Source: Magnetococcales bacterium | GTDB taxonomy: Bacteria > Pseudomonadota > Magnetococcia > Magnetococcales > DC0425bin3 | Direction: 5' to 3' | Length of the DNA stretch: 34,909 bases | Assembly (NCBI GenBank): GCA_015231175.1 | Contig: JADGBZ010000022.1 | Location: forward strand, 7,871-42,779 | Shown here: positions 10,156 through 33,612 of the stretch, piece by piece | Numbering within the stretch: the stretch's first letter is position 1 | How the letters are laid out: each line of letters starts with the position of its first letter | The notes under the pieces: model-generated | What the model saw: only the letters and a program-made list of their open reading frames with translations | What the model was told of the DNA's origin: nothing | The model's database searches: none | Position numbers and translations under genes: made by a program

Positions 10156-10173
10156 CCTTTTTCTGGAACTCCC

Positions 10174-10830: not shown

Positions 10831-10831
10831 C

Positions 10832-13233: not shown

Positions 13234-13246
13234 GGTTCCCAACACC

Positions 13247-13253
13247 AAGGAGA
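13247..13253 (+). promoter_or_regulatory. Strong ribosome binding site for the GTG start of cbiL
   Basis: AAGGAGA lies seven bases before GTG 13261 and supports this non-ATG start. Confidence 0.75.
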
Positions 13254-13260
13254 AACCACC

Positions 13261-13986: not shown

Positions 13987-13997
13987 AAACAGAACGA

Positions 13998-14075
13998 TTG
14001 AAAGACTGGGATGGAGGTCCAGGAGGAAGGGCTGCGCCCTTCCTCCTGGTGGGGTTCGGGGCGAAGCCCTGACCA
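13998..14075 (-). repeat. Dispersed hairpin repeat, copy 3 (inverted, long-stem form)
   Basis: Reverse complement is identical over 78 bp to 15678-15755. It contains the 14-bp stem CCAGGAGGAAGGGC/GCCCTTCCTCCTGG. Together with copy 4 it brackets the nhaD gene as inverted repeats. Confidence 0.92.
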
Positions 14076-14078
14076 AGT

Positions 14079-14113
14079 CTTTCTTTTCAAGCTTTCTTTT
14101 CAAGCTTTCTTTT
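14079..14113 (+). repeat. Short tandem repeat of a 13-mer
   Basis: CTTTCTTTTCAAG occurs twice in tandem (14079-14091, 14092-14104), followed by a partial third copy. It lies where the head of the dispersed repeat would be expected and precedes the 3' end of nhaD. Confidence 0.8.
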
Positions 14114-14145
14114 CCTGGCGCCCGACTTGACTGCGTGTGCGCCGA

Positions 14146-15483: not shown

Positions 15484-15648
15484 ATGGTTCCTCGATAATG
15501 TTTGCATAGGACGCCCCATCGGGGCGACCTTGCCTTGCCAGCTTCCGTCGGTGGAACAAAACCGCGATCCGTTCCAAGGTTGCCAACCCCGCCTGGCGGC
15601 ATACTGGCCTGCCTGTTCCAACAACGTCAAGGCAAAATGAGGGTCCAA

Positions 15649-15755
15649 TTCAAGAAAAGCCTGGACATGAAAGCCTTTGGTCAGGGCTTCGCCCCGAACC
15701 CCACCAGGAGGAAGGGCGCAGCCCTTCCTCCTGGACCTCCATCCCAGTCTTTCAA
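15649..15755 (+). repeat. Dispersed hairpin repeat, copy 4 (long-stem form)
   Basis: Head TTCAAGAAAAGCCTGGACAT, then GAAAGCCTTTGGTCAGGGC, GAACCCCACC, a perfect 14-bp stem at 15704-15717/15721-15734 with loop GCA, and tail CCTCCATCCCAGTCTTTCAA. Its last 78 bases equal copy 3 in inverted orientation. It ends 24 bases before cbiG. Confidence 0.92.
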
Positions 15756-15779
15756 GCGGTTTTTTTGGAGACTCCCCCT

Positions 15780-16913: not shown

Positions 16914-17724
16914 TGTTCGCCGTGGCTCATTGAGTGTGGTCGGCCTGGGACCGGGCGCCCTGGAACACCTGACCGCCCGCGCCCGGGAAGTCATCGCCGA
17001 GGCCAGTGTCATCATCGGGTACAAAACCTACCTGCGCCTCGTCGCCGACCTCTTGAAAGGCAAAAGGGTGCTCGAAAGCCCCATGCGCCAGGAGCTTGCC
17101 CGCTGCGCCGAGGCCACCCGCCTGGCCCTGGTTGGAGAGCGGGTGGTTTTGGTCTCCTCCGGCGACGCGGGCATCTACGGCATGGCCGGACCCCTTCTGG
17201 AGATGCTCTTCCACGCCGGCTGGCAACCCGACGCCGGTATCCGTTTCGAGGTGGTTCCCGGGGTCACCGCTCTGAGCGCCTGCGCCGCCCTGGTGGGAGC
17301 GCCCCTGACCCACGATTTTTGCGCCATCTCCCTGTCGGACCTGCTCACCCCCTGGCCGCAGATTGAAAAACGTCTGGAAGCCGCCGCCAGCGCCGATTTT
17401 GTCACCGCCCTCTACAACCCCAGAAGCGGACGCCGTACCTGGCAGATCGAACGCGCCCAGGAGATTTTTCTTCGCCATCGCTCCCCTGCCACCCCGGTGG
17501 GCCTGGTGACCGCCGCCTGTCGTGAGCATCAAGCCATCTCCCTGACCACCCTGGCCCACATGGATGTTACCACCATCAACATGCAAACCACGGTCCTGAT
17601 CGGCAACCATCGGACGTTCACCAAACATGGCCTCATGGTCACCCCCCGGGGATATGCCGACAAATACAATCTCCAGGACCATTTGCAGGCCGAATCCGAC
17701 CCTGACGCCTCGCCCCCCTCATGA
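16906..17724 (+). CDS. cobJ/cbiH: Precorrin-3B / cobalt-precorrin-3 C17-methyltransferase
   Basis: Tetrapyrrole methylase of 272 residues responsible for C17 methylation and ring contraction. Visible are the N-terminal [30 protein letters not shown] (a CbiH/CobJ signature), [20 protein letters not shown] (SAM-binding loop), [51 protein letters not shown], and the C-terminal VLIGNHRTF. The ATG at 16906 overlaps the end of cbiG and is favoured over an in-frame upstream extension inside cbiG. It overlaps cobQ by four bases. Confidence 0.95.
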
Positions 17725-19190
17725 CCGCCACCAGCCTGATGATCCAGGGAACCACATCAGACGCCGGGAAATCCCTCCTGGTCACGGCCCTGTGCCGCGC
17801 CCTGCACCGTCGTGGCCTCCGGGTCGCCCCTTTCAAGCCACAGAACATGGCCCTCAACAGCGCCGTCACCGTCGATGGCGGGGAGATCGGTCGGGCACAG
17901 GCTGTCCAGGCATTGGCCTGCGGGCTCGCGCCCCACACCGACATGAACCCCATTCTCCTCAAGCCCAACTCCGATATCGGCGCGCAGATCATTGTCCAGG
18001 GCCGACCGGTGGCCAACCTGGACGCCCAGGCCTATCGTCACTTCAAGCCACGCGCCATGACCTTTGCCCTGGACTCTTTCCATCGGTTGCAGACCCAATA
18101 CGATATCCTTCTCATCGAAGGGGCCGGCAGTCCGGCGGAGATCAATCTCCGGGAAGGAGATCTGGCCAACATGGGGTTCGCCGAACGGGTGGATTGCCCG
18201 GTCATCATTGTCGGCGATATTGATCGGGGAGGGGTTTTTGCCCAGTTTGTCGGCACCCTGGAACTTCTCGCCCCTGCCGAGCGGGAGAGGGTCCGGGGTT
18301 TCGTGGTCAACAAGTTTCGCGGCGACATCACCCTGTTGCAGCCGGGTTTGACGTGGCTGGAGGAGAAAACCGGCAAGCCGGTTCTGGGTGTCATGCCTTT
18401 TCTGCCCGGCCTCTACCTGGCTGCCGAAGACAGCTTTTTTCAGGAGGCCTCCTCCGTCCCGACAGATACCCTATCGCTGTTTCGCGTCCTGGTGCCGCGT
18501 CTGCCCCGCATCAGCAACCACACCGATCTGGATCCCCTGCGCCTGCATCCGGGTATTGAACTGCTGTGGGGCGAGAGCGGCAGACCCATCCCCGGCGCCG
18601 ATCTGATCATCCTCCCCGGCAGCAAGAGCGTCCGCGCCGATCTGGCCTGGTTGCGCCAGAACGGCTGGGAGTCCGCCATCGCCCGACACCTGCGCTATGG
18701 TGGCAAGGTGATCGGCATTTGCGGTGGATTTCAAATGCTGGGGGAACGCCTGGAAGATCCCGGCGGCATCGAAGGCCCACCCGGCCATGAACCCGGCCTG
18801 GGCTGGTTGGCCATGACCACCCGCTTTCTCGCTGACAAAACCCTGACCAACGTCACCGGCCACCTGGTCCGGGACCAGGCCCCGGTAACAGGATATGAGA
18901 TCCACATGGGCCAGAGTCACGGCCCGGCCCTGAACAATCCCGCCATGTTTCTGCACGGCCAGCCGCACGGCGCCATCTCCTCCGATGGCCAGATCCTGGG
19001 TGGTTATCTGCATGGCTTGTTCGACCGACCCGAGGCTTGCCACTCCCTCCTTGCCTGGGCGGGCCTGACCAAAACTCACCCCGTCAACCTCGCCCAACGC
19101 CGTGACAGCGACTTTGACCGCCTGGCCGACGCCCTGGAACAACACCTTGATATGCCAGGGATTTTGAGTTTATTGTCACTGCCCAGGTAG
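17721..19190 (+). CDS. cobQ/cbiP: Cobyric acid synthase
   Basis: Amidates four side chains of adenosylcobyrinate a,c-diamide using glutamine and ATP. The N-terminal ATPase domain has the deviant P-loop [13 protein letters not shown] (residues 8-20) and [10 protein letters not shown], then [19 protein letters not shown] and [12 protein letters not shown]. The C-terminal class I glutamine amidotransferase-like domain has the nucleophile Cys 334 in [22 protein letters not shown] and His 431 in GGYLHGLFD. The length of 489 residues is typical. The start overlaps cbiH (ATGA). It is the last cobalamin gene in the run; cbiA, cbiB, cobD, cobU/S/T, cbiF and cbiJ are not in the window. Confidence 0.97.
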
Positions 19191-19286
19191 CCTTTTCGTA
19201 ACAAGGGTTGGCAGCGCACTCTTTCAAATGCGATTGCCCTGTGATTTTGGGTTGTGCCCATGTGGAAATCGTCTTATGCTCCTGGC

Positions 19287-20690
19287 ATGGACACTCTTTT
19301 CACCTCCCTGCTCAAGGATGACGTGGAGTTTGTTGTTGCGCGTGTTGGAACAGCTTGGCAGCCGCTGCGAAATGGACGGATCTTTCTGACCGGGGGCACC
19401 GGTTTCTTTGGTATCTGGCTGCTGGCAACCTTGCAAGCCGCAAACCGCATGCTTGGCCTTGACTGCCGGATCACGGTTTTGAGCCGGTATCCTGAGCGTT
19501 TCCTTGCCCGCTTTCCGGGGTTTGGCAACGACCCGGCCATCGAGTGGCTTACGGGCAGGCTGGAGTCGTTCGTTTTTCCCAAAGGATCTTTCACCCACCT
19601 GATGCACGCCGCCGCCGAAACCAGTGGCGAAGTCGAGGGGCACCCCCTCCTTTCCCTGGAGCGCATGTATGGCGGGACACGGCGCGTCCTGGAGTTTGCC
19701 GGTGAAGCAGGTGTGCGGCGCCTGCTCTATTTGAGTTCGGGCGCGGCATATGGTCCTCTGCCGCCGGATTGCCAGGGCGTTCGCGAGGATATGAACCTGG
19801 CGCCGGCAACGGACGATCCCCGCGCCACCTATGGCATGGGCAAGCGTCTCTCCGAACACCTCTGTCTGCAATTTGCCCGTGAGCGCAACGTGGCAGCGAC
19901 GGTTGCCCGCTGCTTCACCTTCGTCGGTCCGTTCATGCCCATGGGTGCGCACCTGGCCATCGGCAGCTTTATCGTCGAAGCCCTGGAGCGAGAGGCCATC
20001 CGGGTCAAAGGGAGTGGTTCGCCTGTGCGGGCCTACATGTACGTCGCCGACCTGATCGTCTGGCTCTGGGTCATGTTGACACAAGAAGCACCCCATACCA
20101 TCTACAATGTCGGCTCCGACCAAACCCTCTCCATCGCGGACCTGGCCCGCTTGACCGGACGGATCCTCGCCCCGGACAAGCCCGTGCTTATCGAAGGGCG
20201 CCAGAGTGCTGACAACCACCGCCATGTTTACGCCCCGGCCATCACACGGGCCCGGCATGACCTGGGGCTCGGTCTTCACTTTGATCTGACCACGGGCATC
20301 ACCCGCACCGCAGCCTGGTATCAGACCATGCGCACTCAACCGGAGAGACCCCAACCGATTCCGACACCCGCGAAGTCCGAGACGTTTGTTATCGATATCG
20401 ACGGCGTGATCGCCACCCTCACCCCCGGCAATGACTACGCACTGGCCGCACCCTTGACCCACAACATCAAGGCCATCAATGCCCTGCATGCCGCCGGACA
20501 CCGCATCATCCTGTTGACCGCCCGGGGCTCGGCAACCGGCATCGACTGGCACGACATCACCCGCAACCAGTTGGAGACCTGGGGCCTGCGCTACCATGAG
20601 TTGCGCTTTGGCAAACCAGCGGCGGATTATTACGTCGATGACCGCCTGGTCTCCCTGTTCGCACTCTCCGAACTCGCAACTGGCTCGTAA
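19287..20690 (+). CDS. Fused NAD-dependent sugar epimerase/dehydratase and HAD phosphatase
   Basis: A 467-residue two-domain protein. Residues ~30-340 form an extended short-chain dehydrogenase of the nucleotide-sugar type: LTGGTGFFGIWLL with the NAD-binding GGTGFFG at 36-42, the catalytic pair Tyr 182/Lys 186 in ATYGMGKRLSEHL, LLYLSSGAAYGP, and VKGSGSPVRAYMYVADL. Residues ~365-467 form a HAD-family domain with motif I DIDGV (Asp 370, Asp 372), LLTARG, a conserved-looking WGLRYHELRFGKPAADYY and VDD. This HAD type is found in capsule and lipopolysaccharide loci as a sugar-phosphate phosphatase. The natural substrate is unknown. ATG 19287 was chosen because the N-terminus MDTLFTSLLKDD suits the family; ATG 19260 and GTG 19254 are in frame. 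Starts the glycan locus. Confidence 0.85.
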   Translation: MDTLFTSLLKDDVEFVVARVGTAWQPLRNGRIFLTGGTGFFGIWLLATLQAANRMLGLDCRITVLSRYPERFLARFPGFGNDPAIEWLTGRLESFVFPKGSFTHLMHAAAETSGEVEGHPLLSLERMYGGTRRVLEFAGEAGVRRLLYLSSGAAYGPLPPDCQGVREDMNLAPATDDPRATYGMGKRLSEHLCLQFARERNVAATVARCFTFVGPFMPMGAHLAIGSFIVEALEREAIRVKGSGSPVRAYMYVADLIVWLWVMLTQEAPHTIYNVGSDQTLSIADLARLTGRILAPDKPVLIEGRQSADNHRHVYAPAITRARHDLGLGLHFDLTTGITRTAAWYQTMRTQPERPQPIPTPAKSETFVIDIDGVIATLTPGNDYALAAPLTHNIKAINALHAAGHRIILLTARGSATGIDWHDITRNQLETWGLRYHELRFGKPAADYYVDDRLVSLFALSELATGS

Positions 20691-20765: not shown

Positions 20766-22286
20766 ATGACGCACAAAATCCCCGACCGGCTCTTCATTCT
20801 GGAGATGGCCAATAACCATATGGGCGATGTCGATCATGGCGTACAACTCATTCGCGCCTTTGCCGAGGTCTGCAAAGACTTCCCCTTCCGCTTTGCCTTC
20901 AAGATGCAATACCGGCAGTTGGACAGCTTCATCCATCCGGATTTTCAGAAGCGCATGGACATCAAGTACATCAAGCGTTTCGTGGAGACCCGGCTGAGCC
21001 GTGAGCAAACCAGAAGGCTGGTGGATGAGATCAAATCCCACAGGTTCCTTCCAATCTGCACCCCCTTCGACAACGACTCCGTGCCCCTGATCCTGGAGGA
21101 TGGCTTTGCGATCCTGAAAATCGCCAGTTGCTCCTTCACCGACTGGCCTCTCCTGGAGCGCATGGTCCAAAGCGACGTGCCCATCATCGGCTCCACAGCG
21201 GGCATCACTCTGGAAAATATTGACAATGTGGTCAGTTTCATGGACCACCGCAGTAAAGAGTTTGCCTTGATGCACTGCGTGGCCGAATATCCCACCCCCA
21301 ACGACCACCTGCAACTTAACCAGGTCGACTTTCTCAAGGATCGCTATCCGCATCTGCGTATCGGCCACTCTACCCACGAGGCCCCCTCCGAGACATCCAT
21401 CATCGGCATGGCCATCGCCAAGGGGTGCAACATTTTCGAGCGGCACGTCGCCCTGCCCAGCAAGGTCCATGCGGTCAACGATTACTCATCGACCCCCGAG
21501 CAGTTGCATGCCTGGCTGACCGCAGCGCAAAAGGCCTTCGCCGCCTGCGGTGTCGTCGGGGAGCGCTGTGAACCCAATGAAAAAGAGCTGGCCAGCCTCA
21601 TCTCCCTGCGCCGGGGCCTGTTCGCCAAAACCGATCTGGCCGCCGGTGTCCGTGTGCGTGACAGCGACATCTTCATGGCCATCCCCACCCAGGATGGCCA
21701 CATCACCGCCAACGACTGGTCCAAGTACAACCAGTTTTACACCACGGAAGCGATCCGGGCCGGGGCGCCGCTGCTGGTCGGCAATACCCGTCTGGAGCCG
21801 GTGCGTCAGCGGGTTTATGCCATCGTCCAGCGGGTGAAGGAGCTGTTGAAACAAGGCAATGTCATTGTTCCCGGTCAGGCCGATCTGGAGATATCCCACC
21901 ACTATGGCATCGAGCGCTTTGACGAAGTGGGCATCAGCATGATCACGGTGGTCAACCGGCAGTATTGTAAAAAGTTGATCGTTGTCCTGCCCGGTCAATC
22001 CCACCCGGAGCAGTACCACAAGCAGAAAGAGGAGACTTTCCACACCCTGCACGGCACGCTGAATCTGGTTTTGGACGGCAAGTTGCGCATCTGCCGACCC
22101 GGCGACGTGGTGACGGTGGAAAAAGGGGTGCGGCACGCCTTCTCCAGCACAGACGGCGCAGTTTTGGAAGAGATCTCCTCTACCCATTTTGTGGATGACT
22201 CTTTCTACGTCGATCCCGACATTGCCAAAAATCCCAGCCGCAAAACCTTCATCTCTTTCTGGTTGGGCGTCAAACACCCGGCCTGA
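20766..22286 (+). CDS. NeuB-like ulosonate synthase with SAF and cupin domains
   Basis: A 506-residue protein, longer than the usual ~350 of sialic acid synthases. Residues ~8-265 form a NeuB-type TIM barrel (FILEMANNHMGD; FAFKMQYRQLDSF; ICTPFDNDSV; FAILKIASCSFTDWPLLE; LRIGHSTHE; CNIFERHVAL), predicted to condense phosphoenolpyruvate with an aldose or aldose phosphate. Residues ~275-345 resemble the SAF/antifreeze-like domain (SLRRGLFAKTDLAAGVRVRD). Residues ~390-490 form a cupin (VVLPGQSHPEQYHKQKEETF; RPGDVVTVEKGVRHAF). The cupin might isomerise or bind the sugar substrate; that is inference. An AGAGGTG site precedes ATG 20766. No CMP-sugar synthetase (NeuA-type) is seen nearby. Confidence 0.85.
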   Translation: MTHKIPDRLFILEMANNHMGDVDHGVQLIRAFAEVCKDFPFRFAFKMQYRQLDSFIHPDFQKRMDIKYIKRFVETRLSREQTRRLVDEIKSHRFLPICTPFDNDSVPLILEDGFAILKIASCSFTDWPLLERMVQSDVPIIGSTAGITLENIDNVVSFMDHRSKEFALMHCVAEYPTPNDHLQLNQVDFLKDRYPHLRIGHSTHEAPSETSIIGMAIAKGCNIFERHVALPSKVHAVNDYSSTPEQLHAWLTAAQKAFAACGVVGERCEPNEKELASLISLRRGLFAKTDLAAGVRVRDSDIFMAIPTQDGHITANDWSKYNQFYTTEAIRAGAPLLVGNTRLEPVRQRVYAIVQRVKELLKQGNVIVPGQADLEISHHYGIERFDEVGISMITVVNRQYCKKLIVVLPGQSHPEQYHKQKEETFHTLHGTLNLVLDGKLRICRPGDVVTVEKGVRHAFSSTDGAVLEEISSTHFVDDSFYVDPDIAKNPSRKTFISFWLGVKHPA

Positions 22287-22300: not shown

Positions 22301-24133
22301 ATGGCCCAAACCATACGTGTCGCAGACTATATTTTTTCCTTCGTGGCCCGACAGGGGGTGGAGACCGTCTTCATGGTCCCCGGCGGGGGGGCCATGTATC
22401 TGGTGGACGCCCTCGGCCAGCAACCCGGGCTCAAGGTCGTGCCCAACCTGCACGAACAAGCCTCGGCCATCGCCGCCGAGGCCTACGGGCGCGTGCAGGG
22501 GCGGCTGGGCGTAGCCCTGGTCACCACCGGCCCGGGCGCCACCAACGCCATCACCGGCGTTGCCGGCGCCTGGATTGAATCCACACCTCTGCTGGTCATC
22601 TCTGGTCAGGTTAAACGCGCCGATCTGATTGGCAGCTCCGGCGTGCGCCAAATGGGGCCGCAGGAGGTGGATATCATCGCCATGGTCCGCTCCATCACCA
22701 AATATGCCGTGACCGTCATGGATGCCCGCTCCATTCGCGGCCACCTGGAAATGGCCGTCCACCTGGCCACCAGCGGGAGGCGTGGTCCGGTCTGGCTCGA
22801 TGTCCCCCTCGACATCCAGGCCAGCCCCATCGACCCCGACGACTTGCCGGGTGATGAAACGGTCTCCACACTCCCGGCCCACGTCACCTCAGCCGACCTG
22901 GATGCTGAAGCACAAAAAACCCTGGCGCTGATCGATCAGGCCGAACGCCCTCTGCTGCTGGCCGGCCACGGCATCCGCCTGGCCGAAGCTGCACCGGAGT
23001 TCCAGAAACTCTACACCACCCTGAACATTCCCGTGGTGGCCACCTGGAACGCCATGGATCTGATCCCGTTCGACCACCCCTTGTGTGTGGGTCGTCCCGG
23101 AACGGTGGCCCTGCGTGCGCCCAACTTTGCCGTGCAAAACAGCGATCTGATCATCGCCATCGGCGCCCGGCTGGACAATGTGGTGACCGCGTTCAATCCC
23201 GCCGGCTTCGGACGCGAGGCCAAAAAGGTGGTGGTGGATGTGGATCCCCATGAACTGGCCAAACACCACATGCCCCTGGCCCAGGCCATCCAGGCCGATG
23301 CCAAGGCCTACATCGCCGCCCTGCTGCGGCACGGCAGCGGGCAGGCACCGCGCAAGCGCGACCCATGGCTTGCCCGCTGCGCCGACTGGAAGGCGCGCTA
23401 TCCCACCGCCGATGGCCAGCCCTTCCCGGAAACAGGCGAGATCAGCCACTATCATCTGGTCAAGGTTCTCTCCGAGGAGATTCCCGAAGGAAGCCTGATC
23501 GTCACCGGCAGTTCCGGCCTGGGCGTCGAGGTCTTCTACGCCAATTTTCGCAATAAGCCGGGCCAGCGCATCTTTCTCACCTCCGGACTGGGCGCCATGG
23601 GGTACGGACTTCCCGCCCTCATCGGCGGCGGCATGGCCTACAAGGGCGCCTCCCTGGTGGGCATCGAAAGCGACGGCAGCCTGCACATGAACATTCAGGA
23701 GTTGCAAACCCTGACGGCCCAAAACCTGCCGGCACGGCTCTTTATCATCAACAATGCGGGCTATGCCTCCATTCGCAACACCCAGCGCAACTACTTCTCC
23801 GGGCGCTATGTTGGCACCGGCCCCGAGGCGGGGCTCCACCTGGCCGATCCGGGAAAAGTGGCAGAAGCCATGGGCATACCCAGCGTGCGCATCGACGATG
23901 CTCGCGACCTGCGCGATAAAATTCGCGCCGTTCTCGCACAACGCGGTCCCATTCTGTGCGATGTCCGGGTGGTGGCCAACGAGACGCTGTGGCCCAAATC
24001 AGCCGCCATCCCGCAACCGGATGGCTCGATGCTCTCCATGCCCCTGGAAGACATGTCCCCGCTCCTGCCACGTGATGAGCTGCGTGCCAACATGCTCATT
24101 CCCCTGGCCCCGGCGTCGGAACGTATTCCTTAA
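22301..24133 (+). CDS. Thiamine-diphosphate-dependent acetolactate-synthase-like enzyme
   Basis: A 610-residue three-domain ThDP enzyme of the acetohydroxyacid synthase family. The N-terminal pyrimidine-binding domain has the cofactor-activating Glu 52 in NLHEQASAIAAEAYGR and VTTGPGATNAITGVAGAW. The middle domain has PLLLAGHGIRL and IAIGARLDN. The C-terminal diphosphate domain has TSGLGAMGYGLPALIGG and IESDGSLHMNIQELQTL, where the usual GDG metal motif is SDG (457-459), and a retained Asn pair (INN). Its place among sugar genes rather than with ilvN or ilvC argues against valine/isoleucine synthesis. YerE-type enzymes use pyruvate to add a two-carbon branch to CDP-keto-sugars, which is a plausible analogue because rfbF and rfbG occur downstream. 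The true substrate is unknown. Confidence 0.85.
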   Translation: MAQTIRVADYIFSFVARQGVETVFMVPGGGAMYLVDALGQQPGLKVVPNLHEQASAIAAEAYGRVQGRLGVALVTTGPGATNAITGVAGAWIESTPLLVISGQVKRADLIGSSGVRQMGPQEVDIIAMVRSITKYAVTVMDARSIRGHLEMAVHLATSGRRGPVWLDVPLDIQASPIDPDDLPGDETVSTLPAHVTSADLDAEAQKTLALIDQAERPLLLAGHGIRLAEAAPEFQKLYTTLNIPVVATWNAMDLIPFDHPLCVGRPGTVALRAPNFAVQNSDLIIAIGARLDNVVTAFNPAGFGREAKKVVVDVDPHELAKHHMPLAQAIQADAKAYIAALLRHGSGQAPRKRDPWLARCADWKARYPTADGQPFPETGEISHYHLVKVLSEEIPEGSLIVTGSSGLGVEVFYANFRNKPGQRIFLTSGLGAMGYGLPALIGGGMAYKGASLVGIESDGSLHMNIQELQTLTAQNLPARLFIINNAGYASIRNTQRNYFSGRYVGTGPEAGLHLADPGKVAEAMGIPSVRIDDARDLRDKIRAVLAQRGPILCDVRVVANETLWPKSAAIPQPDGSMLSMPLEDMSPLLPRDELRANMLIPLAPASERIP

Positions 24134-24165: not shown

Positions 24166-25131
24166 ATGGAACAAAGAAAACGGATCAGTGTGGTTGTGCC
24201 CTGTTTCAACGAAGAAGAAAATGTTGGCCCCATGTATGAGGCATTGCGCAAGGTTTTTTCAGGCCTCGACAAATACAATTTTGAAATCATCTTTATTGAC
24301 AACTGCTCTACGGATGGGACCGTTGCCATTTTGAAGCAGTTGGCTGCCTCGGATCCCGACGTTAAAGTGATCCTCAATGCCCGCAACTTCGGTACGGTGC
24401 GGTCGCATTTTTACGGTATTCTTCAAACATCTGGCAATGCTGCCGTGACCCAGGCCGCTGATTTTCAGGAACCACCCGAGTTGATCCCCGAGCTGATCGC
24501 ACAGTGGGAAAAGGGGTTCAAGATTGTCATAGCTGTCAAAAAAGGTGCAGAAGAGTCGCCATTCATGCAGTTCGTGCGCAAAATCTACTATGCAGCCCTC
24601 AGCAAGATCGCCGATGTCGACCTGGTGCAAAATTTTAATGGAGCCTGCCTGATTGACCGGCAAGTCGTCGAGATCGCCCGCAACATGGATGATCCCTATC
24701 CATACTTTCGTGGCATGCTCGCCGAGATTGGCCTGCCCAGGGCAGAGGTGCCTTACGTCCAGAAATTGCGCCGGGCCGGCAAAACAAAAAACAATTTCTT
24801 CACGCTCTACGACGTGGCCATGACGGGTGTCACCAGCCATTCCAAAGCGCCTCTGCGACTGATCACCTTCGTCGGTTTTTTGATGTCTGGCATTTGCTTC
24901 TTGATCGCGGCTGGTTACATGTTTTACAAGTTGATCATGTGGGAAAGCTTCCAGATGGGCATGGCGCCACTCATCATTGGCCAGTTTTTTGTCAATGGTA
25001 TCATTCTGACTATTCTTGGTTTGTCTTTTGAATACATCGGAAGCATCAATATGCGTCTGCTTAAACGGCCACTTGTTATAGAAAAAGAACGCCTCAATTT
25101 CGAAAAAAACAGTACAGATTCTGCGAAATAG
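24166..25131 (+). CDS. GtrB/DPM1-like family 2 glycosyltransferase
   Basis: A 321-residue membrane-anchored GT2 enzyme predicted to transfer a sugar from a nucleotide donor to a polyprenyl phosphate. The N-terminus has ISVVVPCFNEEENVGPMYEA and FEIIFIDNCSTDGT, then LNARNFGTVRSHFYG. The usual DxDLQ metal motif reads AADFQEPPEL (97-106), so the first Asp is replaced by Ala. Two hydrophobic segments near the C-terminus (about 228-250 and 268-295) match GtrB topology. A GGAGGG site precedes ATG 24166. With the GtrA and GT39-like genes nearby it forms the elements of a three-component glycosylation system. The gene looks less GC-rich than its upstream neighbours. Confidence 0.9.
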   Translation: MEQRKRISVVVPCFNEEENVGPMYEALRKVFSGLDKYNFEIIFIDNCSTDGTVAILKQLAASDPDVKVILNARNFGTVRSHFYGILQTSGNAAVTQAADFQEPPELIPELIAQWEKGFKIVIAVKKGAEESPFMQFVRKIYYAALSKIADVDLVQNFNGACLIDRQVVEIARNMDDPYPYFRGMLAEIGLPRAEVPYVQKLRRAGKTKNNFFTLYDVAMTGVTSHSKAPLRLITFVGFLMSGICFLIAAGYMFYKLIMWESFQMGMAPLIIGQFFVNGIILTILGLSFEYIGSINMRLLKRPLVIEKERLNFEKNSTDSAK

Positions 25132-25232: not shown

Positions 25233-27080
25233 TTGAACGAGTCGAACCATAAACAACATACCAACATAAGAAAACGTTTTCTTCTGGTCATGCCACAGTT
25301 GGTTCAACAGGTAGGTGATGGCTACTCCTTTCCCCTGGGTATCGCTTATATCTCCGGCAGTCTGAAAGCAGCCGGGTTTGATGTTTACACCCTCAATCTG
25401 AACCATCGTGGGGGAGATGTCACGGAAAATATCCAAAAGGAAATTCGAGAAAAACGGATCGACGTTGTGGCAACCGGTGGCCTCAGCTTTCAGTACAACT
25501 CAATCCGGACCGTCGTCATGGCAGCCAAAGATGTGGACGCACGCATCATCACTATCGTGGGTGGCGGTATCATAACCAGCGACCCGGAACCAGCCATGGA
25601 TGCTTTGGAATTTGTTGACTACGGTGTTGTTGGCGAGGGAGAATTGACTGCCGTTGAGTTATGTCACTATCTGGAAGATGGTGGCGATGCCAGTAAAATT
25701 AACGGCGTGATCTATAAAAACGGGGCAGGCTACCACACAACCCCCTCTCGCACGGAAATCCAGGATCTTAATGCGCTGCCATGGCCAGACTATGACGGAT
25801 TTGAGCTGGAACAGTACCTTAACTTTACACCAGCCATCAGTGGCATCAATCGAACCAACACCGTCTTCATGATTGCCAGCCGTTCCTGCCCCTACAATTG
25901 CACCTTCTGTTTCCATACCACAGGACAAAAATATCGTCAAAGAACCATGGACAGTTTTTTTGAAGAGCTGGATTACATGGTCTCCCGCTATAAAATTGAC
26001 TATTTGTGTCTGGCTGACGAGTTGTTTTCCACCAACTCGCACCGGGTGCGTTCGTTCTGTGAGCGCATTAAAAAATATGGTATTCGCTGGTGGGCACAGT
26101 TTCGCGTTGACAAGATATCGCCGGAACTGCTCGGCATGCTTAAAGAGTCCGGTTGCGATGTTATGTCCTTCGGCCTGGAGAGTGCTGACGACAACGTCCT
26201 GAAAAGCATGCAAAAATTCACCACCCGCGCCGATATGGAACGCACATTGAAAATGGTCTACGAGGCCGGCATATCGTTTGAAGGGGCGTTCATCTTTGGC
26301 GACATCAATGAAACCTGGGAAACAGCCAACAACACCTTGACATGGTGGCGAAATCATGCCCACTATAAAATTACGCTCAATCTCATCACAATTTTTCCAG
26401 GCACACCTCTTTACCATGATGCCTACCGAAGGGGCATCCTGAAAGACAAGGTCAAATTTTTGCGGGAAGGGTGCCCACAGATCAACGTTTCCAAACTCAG
26501 TGACGACGAATTCGCCGGGTTGGTGCGCATCATCATGGAATCACCCATAACTTTCCTCAAAACCTTGGATGATATACGCATTGATGAGGTCGATTATATC
26601 ACTGGGCGGGTCAATATTACCGGAACCTGCACCGCCTGCCAACATAGGGGTGATTGGCCAAAAATCAAACTCATGGCAGCTACCTTTGTCTCCTGCCCGG
26701 AGTGTGGACAACGCTACAATGTTGTCCTTCCAAACGTCTTGCGCCAAAATGTTGAAGCCAACATTGAGAAGCTCCTCAAACGCTATGGCAAACTGGCTGT
26801 CTGGGGTATCAACTACCATACGGCAAGCCTGATCAAAAACTCCAAGGCGCTGCTGGGTTCCGGTGTTTTTCCCATCGATATCTCCTCAACCAAACGCATG
26901 ATGGACCTCTACGGAAAAAAAATCTCTGCACCCGAAGTGCTGCGTGAAAAAAAAATCGAAGCACTCATCATTCTGATACCGGTCTACTTCAGCGAAATCG
27001 CCGGACATGTCCGCTCTACCTATCCGGAAGTGAAACAAATTGTGGATGTCTGTTCCCTGCTTAACCCGGCGTTTGAATGA
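25233..27080 (+). CDS. B12-binding radical SAM protein with zinc ribbon and C-terminal Rossmann-like domain
   Basis: A 615-residue protein. Residues ~15-150 resemble a cobalamin-binding domain (LGIAYISGSLKAAGFDVYTL; VATGGLSFQYNSIRTVV; IVGGGIITSDPEPAM; GVVGEGELTAVEL). The radical SAM core follows, with the iron-sulfur motif CPYNCTFC (Cys 219, 223, 226), then CLADELF and MSFGLESADDNVLKSM. Residues 466-491 hold two CxxC pairs (466/469, 488/491), a likely zinc ribbon. The C-terminal ~95 residues form a Rossmann-like module starting LAVWGINYHTASLI, similar to the end of the methyltransferase two genes downstream. Class B radical SAM enzymes often methylate unactivated carbons; in this locus a sugar or lipid target is likely but unproven. 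Start is TTG with a strong GGAGGG site. Confidence 0.85.
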   Translation: MNESNHKQHTNIRKRFLLVMPQLVQQVGDGYSFPLGIAYISGSLKAAGFDVYTLNLNHRGGDVTENIQKEIREKRIDVVATGGLSFQYNSIRTVVMAAKDVDARIITIVGGGIITSDPEPAMDALEFVDYGVVGEGELTAVELCHYLEDGGDASKINGVIYKNGAGYHTTPSRTEIQDLNALPWPDYDGFELEQYLNFTPAISGINRTNTVFMIASRSCPYNCTFCFHTTGQKYRQRTMDSFFEELDYMVSRYKIDYLCLADELFSTNSHRVRSFCERIKKYGIRWWAQFRVDKISPELLGMLKESGCDVMSFGLESADDNVLKSMQKFTTRADMERTLKMVYEAGISFEGAFIFGDINETWETANNTLTWWRNHAHYKITLNLITIFPGTPLYHDAYRRGILKDKVKFLREGCPQINVSKLSDDEFAGLVRIIMESPITFLKTLDDIRIDEVDYITGRVNITGTCTACQHRGDWPKIKLMAATFVSCPECGQRYNVVLPNVLRQNVEANIEKLLKRYGKLAVWGINYHTASLIKNSKALLGSGVFPIDISSTKRMMDLYGKKISAPEVLREKKIEALIILIPVYFSEIAGHVRSTYPEVKQIVDVCSLLNPAFE

Positions 27081-27111
27081 TCTTGGATACGGCGGCCAAT
27101 CTGGAAAAGTC

Positions 27112-27525
27112 ATGCTGCTGAAAATCGCGTTGGGTGACTTGTGGCGACAACATCAAAATGTCATTCGCTATCTCATTGGGGGCGCCTACAACACCCTTTT
27201 TGGTTTTCTGTTTTTTGCGGGTATCTACTACCTGTTTGCCGACGTTGTGCATTATCTCCTGCTGTCAGTTGTTTCACAGGTCGCATCCGTTACCAACGCC
27301 TTTTTGGTTTATCGACTGTTTGTCTTTAAATCCAAAGGAAATGCGCTCCGGGAATATGTTCGCTTTTATCTTGTTTATGGTGTCTCTTTCATTGTCGGCA
27401 TCGTGTCGATGTGGATTATGGTGGAGGTTTTTGCCATCCATCCCATTGTCAGCCAACTCCTGATCCTGCTCTCCACCGTCACCATCAGCTATTTTGGACA
27501 CAAAAATTTTTCCTTCAAGGGGTGA
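27112..27525 (+). CDS. GtrA-family membrane protein
   Basis: A 137-residue protein with four hydrophobic segments and the GtrA pattern: RYLIGGAYNTLFGFLFFAGI at the N-terminus, ASVTNAFLVYRLFVFKSKG in the middle, and YFGHKNFSFKG at the C-terminus. GtrA proteins are proposed to flip polyprenyl-phosphate-linked sugars across the inner membrane and usually accompany a GtrB glycosyltransferase, present here at 24166. The ATG at 27112 follows the upstream stop by 31 bases; the longer open frame begins inside the preceding gene. The next gene starts four bases after its stop, so coupling is likely. Confidence 0.9.
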   Translation: MLLKIALGDLWRQHQNVIRYLIGGAYNTLFGFLFFAGIYYLFADVVHYLLLSVVSQVASVTNAFLVYRLFVFKSKGNALREYVRFYLVYGVSFIVGIVSMWIMVEVFAIHPIVSQLLILLSTVTISYFGHKNFSFKG

Positions 27526-27529
27526 ACAC

Positions 27530-28669
27530 ATGCGTTGCCGGGCCTGTACTGGATCTCTTCACACCCACCCCCTGTTGCGGCTGGAAGACATGCCCGATGC
27601 TGCCCAGTTTTTGCCCGACGCCGCAGCCTTGGCCAGCGAACGTGGCGCGGATCTCGACCTCCTCCAGTGTGCGGCCTGTGGTTTGATCCAGCTGGGCGGT
27701 GCCCCGGTTCATTACTATCGGGAGGTGGTTCGTGCGGCGGCCTACTCCCCGGAAATGGGCGCCTTCAGGGAAGAACAGTTACGCGGTTTTGCCCGGCAAT
27801 TTGGTCTCGTGGGCCACAAGGTGCTCGAAATAGGTTGTGGAAAAGGGGAGTATCTCACCTTGCTGCAAAAGGTGGGCATGCAGGCCCATGGCCTGGAGTT
27901 CTCCTCCGCTTCTGTCGACCACTGCCGGGAACAAGGACTGACTGTCCATGCGGGATATGTCGAGAACGAAGAGACTCTTGTTCCGGATGCACCCTTTGCG
28001 GCCTTTTTCATCTTCAATTTTCTCGAACACATGCCTGATCCACGCACCTCCCTGCGTGGCATGGCCCACAATCTTGTCCCGCATGGCGTCGGACTGGTGG
28101 AAGTCCCCAATCTTGACATGATCCTGCGTCACAAACTCTTTTCGGAGTTCATTCGCGACCATCTGACCTACTTTACCCGGGCAACCCTGACCAACCTGTT
28201 GGCCATGTGCAGCTTTGAGGTGATCGACTGTCAGGAGGTCTGGCATGACTACATTCTGTCCGCCACGGTCCGGAAACGCTCCCCCACCGATGTCTCATCC
28301 CTGATTCAGCATCGGGAACACATTCACCGGGACATTCACCAATATCTGGACGGGTTCATGCCCCGCCGGGTGGCGGTCTGGGGGGCCGGCCATCAGGCGT
28401 TGGCGATTTTGAGCCTGGTCCGAATCCAGGATCGCATTCGTTATGTGGTGGACTCCGCCCCCTTCAAACAGGGACGCTTCACGCCCGCCACCCACCTGCC
28501 CATCGTCGCGCCACAACACCTGCTTGCCGACCCGGTCGATGGCATCATCGTCATGGCCGCTGCCTACTCCGACGAAGTTGCCAAACGGATTCAACAGCAG
28601 TATGATCAGGTCAAGGGGGTGGCCATCCTGAGGGATTACGGGTTGGAGATTGTGAAAAATCATGCGTAA
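27530..28669 (+). CDS. Sugar C-methyltransferase-like SAM-dependent methyltransferase
   Basis: A 379-residue three-domain protein. The N-terminus has two CxxC pairs (MRCRACTGSL; LLQCAACGLIQL) forming a zinc-binding domain as in Methyltransf_13. The central class I methyltransferase domain has motif I VLEIGCGKGEYL and FFIFNFLEHMPDP. The C-terminal region (from about residue 280, RVAVWGAGHQALAIL with Trp 284) matches the Methyltransf_14-type domain. This order is typical of NDP-sugar C-methyltransferases that methylate next to a keto group. rfbF/rfbG downstream could supply a CDP-4-keto sugar, but the substrate is not determined here. An AAGGGG site precedes ATG 27530; the frame is open slightly further upstream inside gtrA. 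Confidence 0.87.
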   Translation: MRCRACTGSLHTHPLLRLEDMPDAAQFLPDAAALASERGADLDLLQCAACGLIQLGGAPVHYYREVVRAAAYSPEMGAFREEQLRGFARQFGLVGHKVLEIGCGKGEYLTLLQKVGMQAHGLEFSSASVDHCREQGLTVHAGYVENEETLVPDAPFAAFFIFNFLEHMPDPRTSLRGMAHNLVPHGVGLVEVPNLDMILRHKLFSEFIRDHLTYFTRATLTNLLAMCSFEVIDCQEVWHDYILSATVRKRSPTDVSSLIQHREHIHRDIHQYLDGFMPRRVAVWGAGHQALAILSLVRIQDRIRYVVDSAPFKQGRFTPATHLPIVAPQHLLADPVDGIIVMAAAYSDEVAKRIQQQYDQVKGVAILRDYGLEIVKNHA

Positions 28670-28818: not shown

Positions 28819-29481
28819 ATGCATACTCTGGAACGTGCGATCGCCGCAGTGGATGCGGCAGCCAACAACCCGAACGAAGGGTTGCCTGAGCCGGTTTTTC
28901 TCATGGTAAGTCGTCTGACCCCGATGGTCAACGTCGATCTCCTGATCCAGAATCCAACCGACGGGACAACCCTCCTGACCTGGCGAAATGACCGGTTCCA
29001 CGGGGAAGGGTGGCACATCCCGGGTGGCATCGTCCGCTTCAAGGAGACCTTCGCCGAGCGGATTCATCAGGTCGCCCGCCAGGAGTTAGGCGCCAAAGTC
29101 CGCTTCGATCCCCAACCTTTGATGATTCAGGAGCCCATCGTCCGCGACCGCGCCGACCGTTCGCATTTTGTTTCTCTGCTTTTCGCCTGTTCCCTGACCC
29201 ACCAGCCGGACGAATCGATGCGCTTTTTCAACGGCCAACCACAAGCCGGACAGTGGGCTTGGCATAAGGGATGCCCGGGGAATGTGCTGCCGATCCATCG
29301 ACTCATGTATCGGCATGTGCTGGAATCAAAAACGATAGGCAACTGTTCAAGACCTTTTCAAGAAAGGCTTGGATATGAAAGCCTTTGTCAGGGCTTCGCC
29401 CCGAACCCCACCAGGACTCCGTCCTGGACCTGCCAGGGAGCCAGCCCCCTGGACCCCGATTCGTTACCGGGTGCTGAATAG
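28819..29481 (+). CDS. Nudix hydrolase, GDP-mannose mannosyl hydrolase-like, with repeat-derived tail
   Basis: Residues ~1-175 form a Nudix protein: MVNVDLLIQNPTDG, WHIPGGIVRFKETFAERIHQ, VARQELGAKV. The Nudix box is altered (the REUxEE part reads QVARQE), as in GDP-mannose mannosyl hydrolases, which also have this N-terminal context and hydrolyse GDP-sugars to GDP and sugar. The last ~41 codons (from about 29357) lie entirely within a dispersed intergenic repeat and encode an atypical tail (GYESLCQGFAPNPTRTPSW) before a TAG inside the repeat. The native C-terminus was therefore probably replaced or extended by repeat insertion. Its role may be to control sugar-nucleotide pools in this locus. 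No strong ribosome binding site is seen. Confidence 0.8.
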   Translation: MHTLERAIAAVDAAANNPNEGLPEPVFLMVSRLTPMVNVDLLIQNPTDGTTLLTWRNDRFHGEGWHIPGGIVRFKETFAERIHQVARQELGAKVRFDPQPLMIQEPIVRDRADRSHFVSLLFACSLTHQPDESMRFFNGQPQAGQWAWHKGCPGNVLPIHRLMYRHVLESKTIGNCSRPFQERLGYESLCQGFAPNPTRTPSWTCQGASPLDPDSLPGAE

Positions 29482-29548: not shown

Positions 29549-30655
29549 ATGACCACTCAGGATGAGATGACCAGAGTGTCTGAGCAGAGCAAACGCAACA
29601 AACTGAAAGAAGAAAAGCCCTACGTCTACGACAAGGTCGTTCGCTACGAAGAGAAAGTCAAGCGGGGCGAGAGCATCGCCATCCTGCAATTTCAGTACGA
29701 CTACACCTGCAATTTTCATTGCGAACATTGCTCCGCCGACAAATTCATGGTCAAAACGAAAAGCGCCAAAAATGCCGACAAGCGGCGCTTCTTCACCCTG
29801 GAAGATGTGCGGGAACTCTCCCGTCAGGGTGATGCGATGGGCTTGGCCAATATCGTCATCACCGGTGGAGAACCCCTTGTCTATCCTGATTTTGACAAGG
29901 TTGTCGAAGCCATCGACCCTGCCAAGTGGTATGTCACCTCCGACTCCAACGGTTGGCACCTCGACCTGAAGCGGGCGCGACATTTGAAATCCATCGGTGT
30001 GGATAAAATTCAACTTAGTCTGGACAGCTTCCGCCGCGAGGAACATGACAGGTTTCGTCAAAAACCCGGTTCCTACGATCGGGTTATTCGTGCCGTTGAT
30101 GCCTGTCTGGAGGCAGGACTCAACCTGATCTTCCAAACCGTGCTTTGGAAAGAGCGTTGCTACTCCCAGGAGTTTATCGACATGCTGGAGTTCGGCCAAA
30201 GCAAGGGCGTAGGAACCTACGTCACCTTTGCCAAGGCCGTCGGGGCGTGGGAGGGACGCATGGAGGTTCTCTGCGGTGACGCCGAGTGGAATTACGTCCA
30301 CGATCTCGAAAAAAAATATAATGTCTTCACCCACCTGACACCGGGTTACGGCATCGATGTCGGCTGCATCGCCGTCAAACGCATGGTCTCCATCACCAAA
30401 TATGGTGATGTCATGCCCTGCCCTTATACCCATACGTCACTGGGTAACTTTTTTGAAGAACCCCTTGAAAGCATCATCAACCGTGGCCTGCGCATCAAAT
30501 ACTTTGGCTACGGTCAAAAGCACGTCTGCCTGGTTGGCAACAAGGATGACCCGTTCATCGAGGAGCGCAGTAAAAGAATGTATGGCAAACAGGTTCCGGT
30601 ACCATTCAAGGAGGTCTTTGAGGATATCGATTTTGTCGATAACAAGTGCTGCTGA
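29549..30655 (+). CDS. Radical SAM protein with SPASM-like C-terminus
   Basis: A 368-residue enzyme with the 4Fe-4S motif CNFHCEHC (Cys 54, 58, 61) after LQFQYDYT. The SAM-binding GGEP motif is in IVITGGEPLVYPDF, followed by YVTSDSNGWHLD and KIQLSLDSF. The C-terminal part has further cysteines at 273, 291 and 327 and a terminal Cys-Cys (367-368), with the context VSITKYGDVMPCPYTHTSLGN resembling SPASM/twitch auxiliary-cluster domains. Such proteins modify peptides, sugars or other small molecules; the substrate is not evident. No small precursor peptide gene is visible next to it, which favours a sugar or lipid substrate in this glycan locus. ATG 29549 is preceded by GGAAAGG at a slightly long spacing. 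Confidence 0.85.
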   Translation: MTTQDEMTRVSEQSKRNKLKEEKPYVYDKVVRYEEKVKRGESIAILQFQYDYTCNFHCEHCSADKFMVKTKSAKNADKRRFFTLEDVRELSRQGDAMGLANIVITGGEPLVYPDFDKVVEAIDPAKWYVTSDSNGWHLDLKRARHLKSIGVDKIQLSLDSFRREEHDRFRQKPGSYDRVIRAVDACLEAGLNLIFQTVLWKERCYSQEFIDMLEFGQSKGVGTYVTFAKAVGAWEGRMEVLCGDAEWNYVHDLEKKYNVFTHLTPGYGIDVGCIAVKRMVSITKYGDVMPCPYTHTSLGNFFEEPLESIINRGLRIKYFGYGQKHVCLVGNKDDPFIEERSKRMYGKQVPVPFKEVFEDIDFVDNKCC

Positions 30656-31729: not shown

Positions 31730-32512
31730 ATGCAGGTCGTTATTCTATGTGGCGGGTACGGCACCCGGTTGCGCCAGGAGACCGAATTCCGGCCCAAGCC
31801 CATGGTCGAGATTGGGGGTAAGCCGATCATCTGGCACATCATGAAACTCTTTGCCCACTACGGCATGAAACAATTCATCCTGTGCCTTGGTTACAAGAGC
31901 TTCATGATCAAGGAGTATTTCATCAACTATGAAATGATGAACCGGGATTTTACCATTACCCTCGGCAACAAACATCACGTCCTGCTGCATCGCAGCCACA
32001 CCGAAGATGATTATCAGGTCACCCTTGCCGATACCGGGTTGGAGTCCATGACCGGTGGCCGCATCAAGGCGGTTGAACGCTACCTCCAGGAAGATACCTT
32101 CATGGTCACCTACGGTGACGGCTTGAGTGATGTCAACCTTGAACAACTCCTGGCCTTTCACCGCAGCCACGGCAAACTGGCCACGGTCACCTCGGTCAAC
32201 CCCCTCTCCCGCTTTGGCATACTCAAAGTCGGTGATGATGGCCAGGTGGCTGATTTCAGAGAAAAACCACGTGTCGATGGCAAAATCAGCGCCGGCTTTT
32301 TTGTCTTCAACCGTGCCGTGCTCGACTATTTGGACAAAGGTCCAGCCACCATACTGGAAGAAGAACCTCTCAGTCGCCTTGCCCAGGATGGCCAATTGAT
32401 GGCCTTCCAACATGACGGCTTTTTTTACGCCATGGACACCTATCGGGAGTATCAATATCTGCAAAAATTATGGGACTCCGGTGCCCCGCCCTGGAAGGTT
32501 TGGTCACCATGA
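31730..32512 (+). CDS. rfbF: Glucose-1-phosphate cytidylyltransferase
   Basis: Makes CDP-glucose and pyrophosphate from CTP and glucose 1-phosphate, the first step to CDP-linked 3,6-dideoxy and 6-deoxy sugars. The 260-residue protein begins with the nucleotidyltransferase signature VVILCGGYGTRLRQETEFRP then KPMVEIGGKPIIWHIMK. It also has FMVTYGDGLSDVNLEQLL (metal-binding Asp), SRFGILKVGDDG, FREKP and AGFFVFNRAVLDYL, all typical of RfbF/DdhA. A GAGGTG site lies just upstream of ATG 31730. The stop overlaps the rfbG start in an ATGA junction, so the two are translationally coupled. Base composition returns to high GC. Confidence 0.97.
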   Translation: MQVVILCGGYGTRLRQETEFRPKPMVEIGGKPIIWHIMKLFAHYGMKQFILCLGYKSFMIKEYFINYEMMNRDFTITLGNKHHVLLHRSHTEDDYQVTLADTGLESMTGGRIKAVERYLQEDTFMVTYGDGLSDVNLEQLLAFHRSHGKLATVTSVNPLSRFGILKVGDDGQVADFREKPRVDGKISAGFFVFNRAVLDYLDKGPATILEEEPLSRLAQDGQLMAFQHDGFFYAMDTYREYQYLQKLWDSGAPPWKVWSP

Positions 32513-33612
32513 GCAAAATCGCCCAGTGGTATCGGAATCGCCGGGTATTGATTACCGGTCATACCGGTTTCAAAGGCAGTTGGTTGACACTCTGGTTGCA
32601 CCACTGGGGTGCGCGTGTGTCCGGTCTGGCCCTCCCCCCTGCCACCCAGCCCAGCCTGTTCCATGTGCTAAAACTCCCGACCCGCATGGCAGGACACCAG
32701 GAGGGGGATGTCGGAAATATGGCCGCTCTGCGGCATGCCGTGGAGACTTCCGATGCCGAGGTCATTTTTCATCTGGCTGCCCAAGCCCTCGTTCGCCCCG
32801 GTTATCAGGATCCTGTCACAACCTTCCACACCAACGTCATGGGGGTTGTCAATCTCCTGGAGGTGGTCCGGCAACGACAACGCCCTTGTGTGGTCATCGT
32901 GGTGACCAGTGACAAGTGCTACGCAAACCATGAGCACGTCTGGGGGTATCGGGAGTGTGATCCCATGGGGGGTGACGACCCCTACAGCGCCAGCAAAGGC
33001 GCTGCGGAGCTGGTAGTTTCCGCCTACCGTCACTCCTTCTTCCCTCCAGGAAGGATATCCGGGCACGGTGTCGCCCTGGCCTCGGTCCGTGCGGGCAACG
33101 TGGTCGGTGGCGGAGATTGGGCCAAGGATCGGCTGGTTCCGGATATCGTCCGTGCTGTGAGCTCCGGATCATCCGTTTTTCTACGCAACCCCAAAGCGGT
33201 GCGCCCCTGGCAACATGTCCTGGATCCACTGCACGGCTACCTTGTCCTGGGTGAGCGTCTGGCAAACGCCCAGGATCAGGCAACAACCCTCTGTAGTGGC
33301 TGGAACTTTGCTCCATTCAACCAGGACACATCCGTCACGGTGGGCGAGATCACGCAACGCTTCACGGAACTTTTCTCCGCGCCGCCCTGGCAGTTTGACG
33401 CTGGTCATCACCCCCATGAGGCCCACACACTGCGCCTCTCCATCGATAAAGCCCTCAATGGCCTGCCCTGGCACCCCGTCTGGAATGTACAAACCACGAT
33501 TGAACACACAGCGCGCTGGTATCAAAACCACCAGACAAATCCGGAAAAAATGCTGACCTTCAGCCTGGATCAAATCGACACATTCCTGCACGACAGCAGG
33601 CGAACACCTTAA
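32509..33612 (+). CDS. rfbG: CDP-glucose 4,6-dehydratase
   Basis: Converts CDP-glucose to CDP-4-keto-6-deoxyglucose. The 367-residue extended SDR has the NAD-binding motif VLITGHTGFKGSWLTLWLH typical of RfbG, VIFHLAAQALVRPGYQDP, the catalytic region VVTSDKCYAN with DPYSASKGAAELV (Tyr-x-x-x-Lys), RAGNVVGGGDWAKDRLVPD and RPWQHVLDPLHGYL. ATG 32509 overlaps the rfbF stop. The expected next enzyme for 3,6-dideoxyhexoses (RfbH/DdhC, PLP-iron-sulfur dehydrase) is not in this window, so the product could instead be used directly by a C-methyltransferase or the ThDP enzyme upstream; that is inference. Confidence 0.97.
   Translation: MSKIAQWYRNRRVLITGHTGFKGSWLTLWLHHWGARVSGLALPPATQPSLFHVLKLPTRMAGHQEGDVGNMAALRHAVETSDAEVIFHLAAQALVRPGYQDPVTTFHTNVMGVVNLLEVVRQRQRPCVVIVVTSDKCYANHEHVWGYRECDPMGGDDPYSASKGAAELVVSAYRHSFFPPGRISGHGVALASVRAGNVVGGGDWAKDRLVPDIVRAVSSGSSVFLRNPKAVRPWQHVLDPLHGYLVLGERLANAQDQATTLCSGWNFAPFNQDTSVTVGEITQRFTELFSAPPWQFDAGHHPHEAHTLRLSIDKALNGLPWHPVWNVQTTIEHTARWYQNHQTNPEKMLTFSLDQIDTFLHDSRRTP

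Follow-up and report, generated by a model that had tools for sequence, protein, structure and literature searches.

A Methyltransf_14-like module shared by a B12-binding radical SAM protein and a sugar C-methyltransferase, and the conserved gene cassette around them

Two enzymes of different chemistry that end in the same kind of domain raise the question of what that domain does, and whether sharing it makes the two enzymes one system. Such a pair is encoded in a stretch of 34,909 nucleotides from a Magnetococcales bacterium (assembly GCA_015231175.1, contig JADGBZ010000022.1, positions 7,871 to 42,779, forward strand), here called the window, and consists of a B12-binding radical S-adenosylmethionine (SAM) protein and a sugar C-methyltransferase. 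An initial annotation of the sequence had noticed a common layout from Trp 524 of the former and Trp 284 of the latter, and proposed a common docking module and possibly a composite C-methylation system. The observation is confirmed and the interpretation partly supported: the two modules are almost certainly homologous, and it is an evenly balanced proposition that both proteins are tailoring enzymes of a cassette for a C-branched, C-methylated cytidine diphosphate (CDP)-deoxysugar, with the module docking the nucleotide sugar. The features concerned are as follows, in window positions.

25233..27080, + strand: B12-binding radical SAM protein of an unnamed family (615 aa, TTG start)
26628..26705, + strand: zinc ribbon of the radical SAM protein, C466-C469-x18-C488-C491 (beta-hairpins in the AlphaFold2 (AF2) model)
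26745..27077, + strand: Methyltransf_14-like Rossmann module of the radical SAM protein, residues 505-615 (hhalign, AF2, Foldseek)
27530..28669, + strand: sugar C-methyltransferase of the TcaB9/KijD1 type (379 aa, best start ATG 27530)
28349..28666, + strand: Methyltransf_14 module of the methyltransferase, residues 274-379 (PF08484, AF2, Foldseek)

Homology and predicted fold of the shared module

In the methyltransferase the module is already known, being PF08484 (Methyltransf_14; 54.1 bits against a curated cut-off of 23.5), a domain with structures in TcaB9, KijD1 and MtmC. On the radical SAM side the homology is visible solely by profile-profile comparison and reciprocal hidden Markov model (HMM) search and not by Pfam, as PF08484 gave no match on the full protein at E <= 1, nor on 30 relatives for which families were shown at E <= 0.1. 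The layout described from the two tryptophans is at the right positions and every named motif is present; in the order radical SAM protein and methyltransferase, VWG occurs in both, followed by ...ID and VVD, SAPEVL and VAPQHL, LIILIP and IIVMAA, SEIA and DEVA, and YPEVK and YDQVK. Aligned locally with BLOSUM62, radical SAM residues 506-615 and the C-terminus of the methyltransferase reach a score of 68, while shuffled sequences score 24.9 +/- 4.4 and none of 2000 scored as high.

Relatives of the module were gathered by whole-genome search and by scanning a single genome for each species. When 31 radical SAM modules were aligned as a profile with 11 methyltransferase modules, hhalign returned a probability of 97.9% (E 3.4e-13), and a second pair of alignments gave 96.9%. 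The Rossmann domains of the same cassette served as controls and all fell within 0.1-5%, among them the SAM domain of the methyltransferase (0.1%), the epimerase (2.4%), RfbG (0.4%) and the middle domain of the thiamine diphosphate (ThDP) enzyme (0.2%). Genome searching with the radical SAM module matched a cassette methyltransferase directly (E 1.9e-4). In searches of 3864 open reading frames (ORFs), the first match of the radical SAM-module HMM outside its own family was a cassette methyltransferase (E 2.6e-10), and the methyltransferase-module HMM retrieved radical SAM copies, so that in both directions the counterpart ranks next or nearly next after the query's own family. Generic Rossmann features as the sole source of the similarity, a reading to which the Rex repressors and other Rossmann proteins returned by Foldseek might be thought to point, are ruled out by the cassette controls and sit poorly with the reciprocal searches; this reading is accordingly highly improbable.

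Judged from sequence, the most telling feature of the shared module is the motif VDSxxxKQG followed by I-x-x-P. In its general form it reads V/I-D-(S/I)-x-x-x-K-(Q/R), then I-x-x-P, and it is clearest in outlying radical SAM copies (VDSSPFKQG, VDSTPLKQ); the methyltransferase sequence VDSAPFKQG agrees with such outlying copies, for example those of loci L037, L044 and L063. The strand-2 Asp is nearly invariant in both modules (D549 in the radical SAM protein, D308 in the methyltransferase), and the basic residue that follows it is retained in most close copies.

Both predicted folds point to the C-terminal domain of sugar C-methyltransferases such as KijD1 and MtmC. The AF2 models have a predicted local distance difference test score (pLDDT) of 94.1 for the radical SAM module and 89.9 for the methyltransferase module. 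With a 156-residue query from the radical SAM protein, the highest TM scores among the listed Foldseek matches were those of MtmC and KijD1 (0.54 and 0.53; 2.8-3.2 A over 109-110 columns), with weak E-values and with Rex repressors and 3nkl ranking alongside. The methyltransferase piece gave clear matches to KijD1 (E 1e-5), MtmC and TcaB9, and then to 3nkl, Rex and the acetyltransferases VioB and PerB. Compared with known PF08484 domains, the radical SAM C-terminus thus shares a predicted fold and the key motif, and differs in lying under Pfam detection, in its degenerate glycine loop and in its host, a radical SAM enzyme.

Domain make-up of the two enzymes and other hosts of the module

The methyltransferase is a full-length relative of TcaB9, KijD1 and MtmC with the same three domains in a single chain: a Methyltransf_13 zinc domain, a class I SAM domain (Methyltransf_23) and Methyltransf_14. 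Its tryptophan is W284 in the 379-aa reading, which agrees with the start at ATG 27530, and W296 in a 391-aa reading. Over residues 2-364 a PDB search found TcaB9 (E 1.5e-20) and KijD1 (E 7e-19), with MtmC also among the solved relatives. Taking the mutated active-site residues of TcaB9 (Y76, H181, Y222, E224, H225) from PDB titles, two histidines are kept in the alignment (H181 as H167, H225 as H211), E224 is replaced by D210 and Y222 by I208, and Y76 is not clearly kept. By analogy with these relatives, the enzyme may methylate a carbon adjacent to a keto group.

The radical SAM protein carries a Pfam B12-binding domain at residues 30-143 (69.2 bits) and a Radical_SAM domain at residues 214-369 (62.3 bits), with an invariant CxxxCxxC at C219, C223 and C226 and the NLNHxxG and GGGI residues of the B12 domain mostly kept. 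This is the arrangement of class B radical SAM methylases such as PhpK, KedN5, TokK and CysS, an N-terminal B12-binding domain followed by the radical SAM core; unlike these, the protein stands in its own unnamed family and continues into a C-terminal zinc ribbon and the Methyltransf_14-like module. No NCBIfam equivalog fits it, as all 25 listed matches lie far under cut-off, the best being BchE (150 vs 481 bits), with PhpK, KedN5, rSAM_ocin_1 and HpnJ also among them.

The zinc ribbon that had been read as CxxC-x18-CxxC just before the module is real, its four Cys being invariant in 30 relatives. It is widespread in the family and is also retained by many relatives that have no module; the segment after it may be the module, a TPR-like tail (read from sequence), a formyltransferase domain or nothing. 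The paired CxxC motifs noted at the N-terminus of the methyltransferase are likewise present and correspond to Methyltransf_13 (29.4 bits, slightly under the cut-off of 31.3), but the suggested parallel with the radical SAM ribbon fails: homology between the two was sought and not found (hhalign 11.8% over 11 columns).

Some relatives of the radical SAM protein show further rearrangements. One (L049 4934-6805) has a C-terminal Formyl_trans_N domain (E 9e-22) where zinc ribbon and module would be. Two paralogous clades stand side by side in several genomes (L017 4207-7983, L027 184-5830, L028 8153-11821), and in L028 both paralogues are fused head to tail into one protein of 1223 aa. A free-standing module copy of 129 aa with 45% identity to the window copy (L022 7194-7580; G000:C5:37187-37519) sits between a different B12 radical SAM gene and a remnant resembling a transposase, and may be what is left of a lost paralogue.

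Besides this pair, the module occurs on at least six other enzyme types. It is found on FkbM methyltransferases (L037, a label read from sequence, and L040), on simple class I methyltransferases (L040, L060), at either terminus of SPASM-type and other radical SAM proteins (L017, L032, L037, L041, L053), on a fusion of a family 2 glycosyltransferase (GT2) with a radical SAM domain (L036, with L108 similar), on a GT8-like protein (L114) and a LicD-like protein (L116), both labels again read from sequence, and, in L021, at the N-terminus of a further B12 radical SAM protein, with PF08484 reaching E 3e-4 there. A search of plasmids with the module gave no match. In a tree of 64 modules, built on 116 usable columns and hence with many weak forks, copies cluster by host enzyme and not by cassette: the window methyltransferase copy falls among methyltransferases (support 99/98) and the radical SAM copy among radical SAM proteins (94/95). 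This grouping rules out a recent swap of the module between the two genes, as far as a tree with many weak forks allows. Glycan enzymes have thus reused this old module widely as an add-on. Given its many host types and this grouping, a dedicated two-enzyme methylation machine does not follow from module sharing alone.

The gene cassette and its distribution

What links the two genes is the cassette in which they stand, and this conserved, patchily distributed cassette is more unusual than the sharing of the module. In the window its order is epimerase with HAD-like tail, NeuB-cupin, ThDP enzyme, GT2, radical SAM protein, GtrA, methyltransferase, NUDIX, SPASM protein, RfbF and RfbG. The genes other than the two already listed are the following.

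19254..20690, + strand: NAD-dependent epimerase with a C-terminal HAD-like segment (Pfam Epimerase; recurs in the cassette; HAD-like part from sequence reading)
20766..22286, + strand: NeuB-type synthase with a C-terminal cupin, cassette core (Pfam NeuB and Cupin_2)
22301..24133, + strand: ThDP-dependent carboligase, YerE/JanthE-like, cassette core (closest PDB entry 8rph)
24166..25131, + strand: GT2 of polyprenyl-phosphate type (Glycos_transf_2; NCBIfam PgfS-like, under cut-off)
27115..27525, + strand: GtrA-type membrane protein (Pfam GtrA_DPMS_TM)
28819..29481, + strand: NUDIX protein, 3' end of the ORF lengthened by a dispersed repeat (Pfam NUDIX)
29549..30655, + strand: radical SAM/SPASM protein, cassette gene (Pfam Radical_SAM and SPASM; recurs in the cassette)
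31730..32512, + strand: RfbF-like glucose-1-phosphate nucleotidylyltransferase (NTP_transferase; cassette synteny)
32470..33612, + strand: RfbG-like CDP-glucose 4,6-dehydratase (GDP_Man_Dehyd / Epimerase; cassette synteny)

The set of RfbF, RfbG, RfbH, NeuB-cupin, ThDP enzyme, epimerase, radical SAM protein, methyltransferase, SPASM protein, NUDIX, GT2 and GtrA recurs with varying completeness in L018, L026, L028, L030, L032 and L042. The rearranged cassettes come from metagenome-assembled genomes (MAGs) labelled Omnitrophota (L030), Magasanikbacteria (L028), Alphaproteobacteria (L032), Oligoflexia (L042) and Magnetococcales (L018), and that of L026 from one labelled archaeon, its binning unchecked. 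The radical SAM and methyltransferase genes are often adjacent (L024, L026, L030), and the NUDIX gene is found again in other cassettes, either next to the methyltransferase gene or at another place. In L032 (18518-20743) epimerase and methyltransferase form one protein of 742 aa; together with the radical SAM fusion of L028, this ties the cassette enzymes together. Recurrence of the cassette across phyla supports a real functional link between the two genes.

Within the order, orthologues of the methyltransferase (>=56% identity), the ThDP enzyme (>=72%) and the NeuB-cupin protein (>=64%) occur in the identical 8 of 48 genomes. Four of these 8, and none of the other 40, also have the module-bearing radical SAM protein, a distribution with a chance of about 4e-4 if the genomes are independent. 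Around a stable cassette core, this protein is thus an optional extra.

The sugar pathway can be read in part from the ThDP enzyme, whose closest PDB entry is 8rph (384 bits, E 8e-114; best acetolactate synthase 273 bits), that is, JanthE, a YerE-like carboligase (PMC12188165). It is thus nearer to the YerE/JanthE type than to acetolactate synthase. Its ThDP-binding motif has SDG (IESDGSLHMN) in place of GDG, and so do those of L018 and L032; for JanthE the motif is known to be CDG. Genes for CDP-4-keto-3,6-dideoxyhexose stand alongside: the window itself has RfbF and RfbG, L018, L135 and L136 have RfbH adjoining RfbG, the L030 cassette includes RfbH, and the window genome has an RfbH orthologue on the small contig C121. 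YerE couples a pyruvate-derived unit to CDP-3,6-dideoxy-4-keto-D-glucose, and ErwE accepts longer hydroxylated keto acids (PMC12247030). Like the clusters for yersiniose, erwiniose and caryophyllose, the cassette combines the CDP-sugar genes with a YerE/JanthE-like enzyme; unlike them, it adds the NeuB-cupin synthase, the C-methyltransferase and the SPASM radical SAM protein, with the B12 radical SAM protein as an optional further member. Four kinds of carbon-carbon chemistry (NeuB condensation, ThDP carboligation, class I C-methylation and cobalamin radical chemistry) are thereby gathered in a compact cassette over several phyla, and a branched surface sugar of a new kind is the predicted product. 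Searches of an open-access library found neither an account of this combination nor a paper on the C-terminal domain of TcaB9 and KijD1 or on B12 radical SAM enzymes in glycan clusters.

Proposed role and its alternatives

In the proposed scheme a C-branched, C-methylated deoxysugar would be built as a CDP-sugar, later placed onto polyprenyl phosphate and then into a surface glycan. NeuB-type synthases make alpha-keto acids, so that the NeuB-cupin protein, with the HAD-like tail of the epimerase, may supply the donor; the acceptor sugar would come from RfbF, RfbG and RfbH, and the ThDP enzyme would join the two. Each tailoring enzyme would keep its own old copy of the module, most likely gripping the nucleotide part and thereby bringing the sugar carbon within reach of the catalytic core. 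The SAM-binding domain of the methyltransferase would methylate next to the keto group in the manner of TcaB9, and the radical SAM protein, with cobalamin and a 4Fe-4S cluster, would act on an unactivated carbon, most likely methylating it, either in that intermediate or in the one that follows. CDP-sugar docking, the order of steps and radical SAM methyl transfer are what we infer here. A fuller version, which is decidedly doubtful, has the NeuB-cupin protein making a long alpha-keto (ulosonic) acid that the ThDP enzyme decarboxylates and couples to the CDP-4-keto-deoxysugar, after which the long-branched sugar is C-methylated by the class I and B12 radical SAM enzymes, each gripping the nucleotide with a docking module of the shared type; this would be an undescribed route.

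The balance tips slightly toward a module that docks the nucleotide sugar, a role made plausible by fold analogy with PglD-type acetyltransferases, whose corresponding domain binds UDP (PMC8040287). The N-terminal domain of PglD, VioB and PerB, which binds a UDP- or dTDP-sugar nucleotide, is likewise a small Rossmann-like domain and a Foldseek neighbour of the methyltransferase module; unlike the module, it precedes a left-handed beta-helix, and no close sequence relation was found. The strand-2 Asp (D549, D308) could play the nucleotide-holding part. The docking module that had been proposed for the pair thus holds as a shared module with a plausible docking role, and fails as something peculiar to these two enzymes. 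The radical SAM enzyme probably acts on the sugar of the cassette, and the chances that it does so by methylation are about even. Through homology to a domain with solved structures, an unannotated domain of a B12 radical SAM family can now be named, and nucleotide-linked sugars become a likely substrate class for that family.

Several observations weigh against tying both enzymes to one nucleotide sugar through this module. No Pfam family covers the radical SAM module, and its glycine loop in the window copy is degenerate (WGINYHT vs WGAGHQ), so that it may have lost nucleotide binding. Three of the four radical SAM-positive genomes of the order belong to one genus; the remaining core-cassette genomes (G018, G020, G030, G039) do without the radical SAM protein, which is hence dispensable; and many module-bearing radical SAM loci (L029, L034-L039) have no recognisable cassette methyltransferase nearby. 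The closest solved relative of the radical SAM protein by sequence is AprD4, which NCBIfam names a radical SAM diol-dehydratase and not a methylase.

These points feed three other explanations. The module might be an ancient generic add-on for folding, oligomerisation or protein-protein docking that has lost nucleotide-sugar binding in the radical SAM protein, as its N- or C-terminal place on many unrelated glycan enzymes (from FkbM and SPASM proteins to GT2-radical SAM, GT8, LicD-like and B12-radical SAM hosts), the eroded loop of the window clade, and its absence from some relatives, which have a TPR-like tail, a formyltransferase domain or no further segment in its place, would suggest; the near-invariant Asp and the basic residue kept in most close copies suit ligand binding better than a scaffold, and we regard this explanation as unlikely. 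Somewhat more room, still short of even, is left for a radical SAM protein that is not a methylase and uses cobalamin and SAM for deoxygenation, epimerisation or rearrangement of the branched sugar, leaving C-methylation to the class I enzyme. AprD4, the distant BchE and HpnJ matches and the tandem or fused radical SAM pairs (L017/L023, L027, L028), which suggest two steps, speak for it, whereas cobalamin-dependent methylases (PhpK, KedN5, rSAM_ocin_1) make up many of the NCBIfam matches listed and the B12 motifs are mostly kept. The composite C-methylation system, in which the module was exchanged between the two genes and brings both enzymes to one carrier-bound substrate, is improbable: the genes do share a cassette and are often neighbours, but copies group by host enzyme, many other hosts carry the module, and half of the core-cassette genomes of the order have no radical SAM protein. 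Preferred to all three is the reading of both proteins as cassette tailoring enzymes.

A few further features of the window lie around these genes. The dispersed intergenic repeat that artificially extends the NUDIX ORF is about 76-125 bp long and stands at 29372-29464, 10061-10162, 13987-14091 and 15677-15766; for one form of it, at least 52 matches were counted over the 3.8 Mb genome, most of them 99-100% identical and sometimes in close tandem pairs, with many further unscored candidates. Upstream of the cassette, 10174-19190 holds a run of apparent cobalamin biosynthesis genes (read from translations), whose adjacency is treated as incidental because such genes were not found upstream of the G010 cassette. 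At the start of the window, positions 1-1432 contain a Glu/Ala-rich ORF with internal 48-nt and 102-nt tandem repeats.

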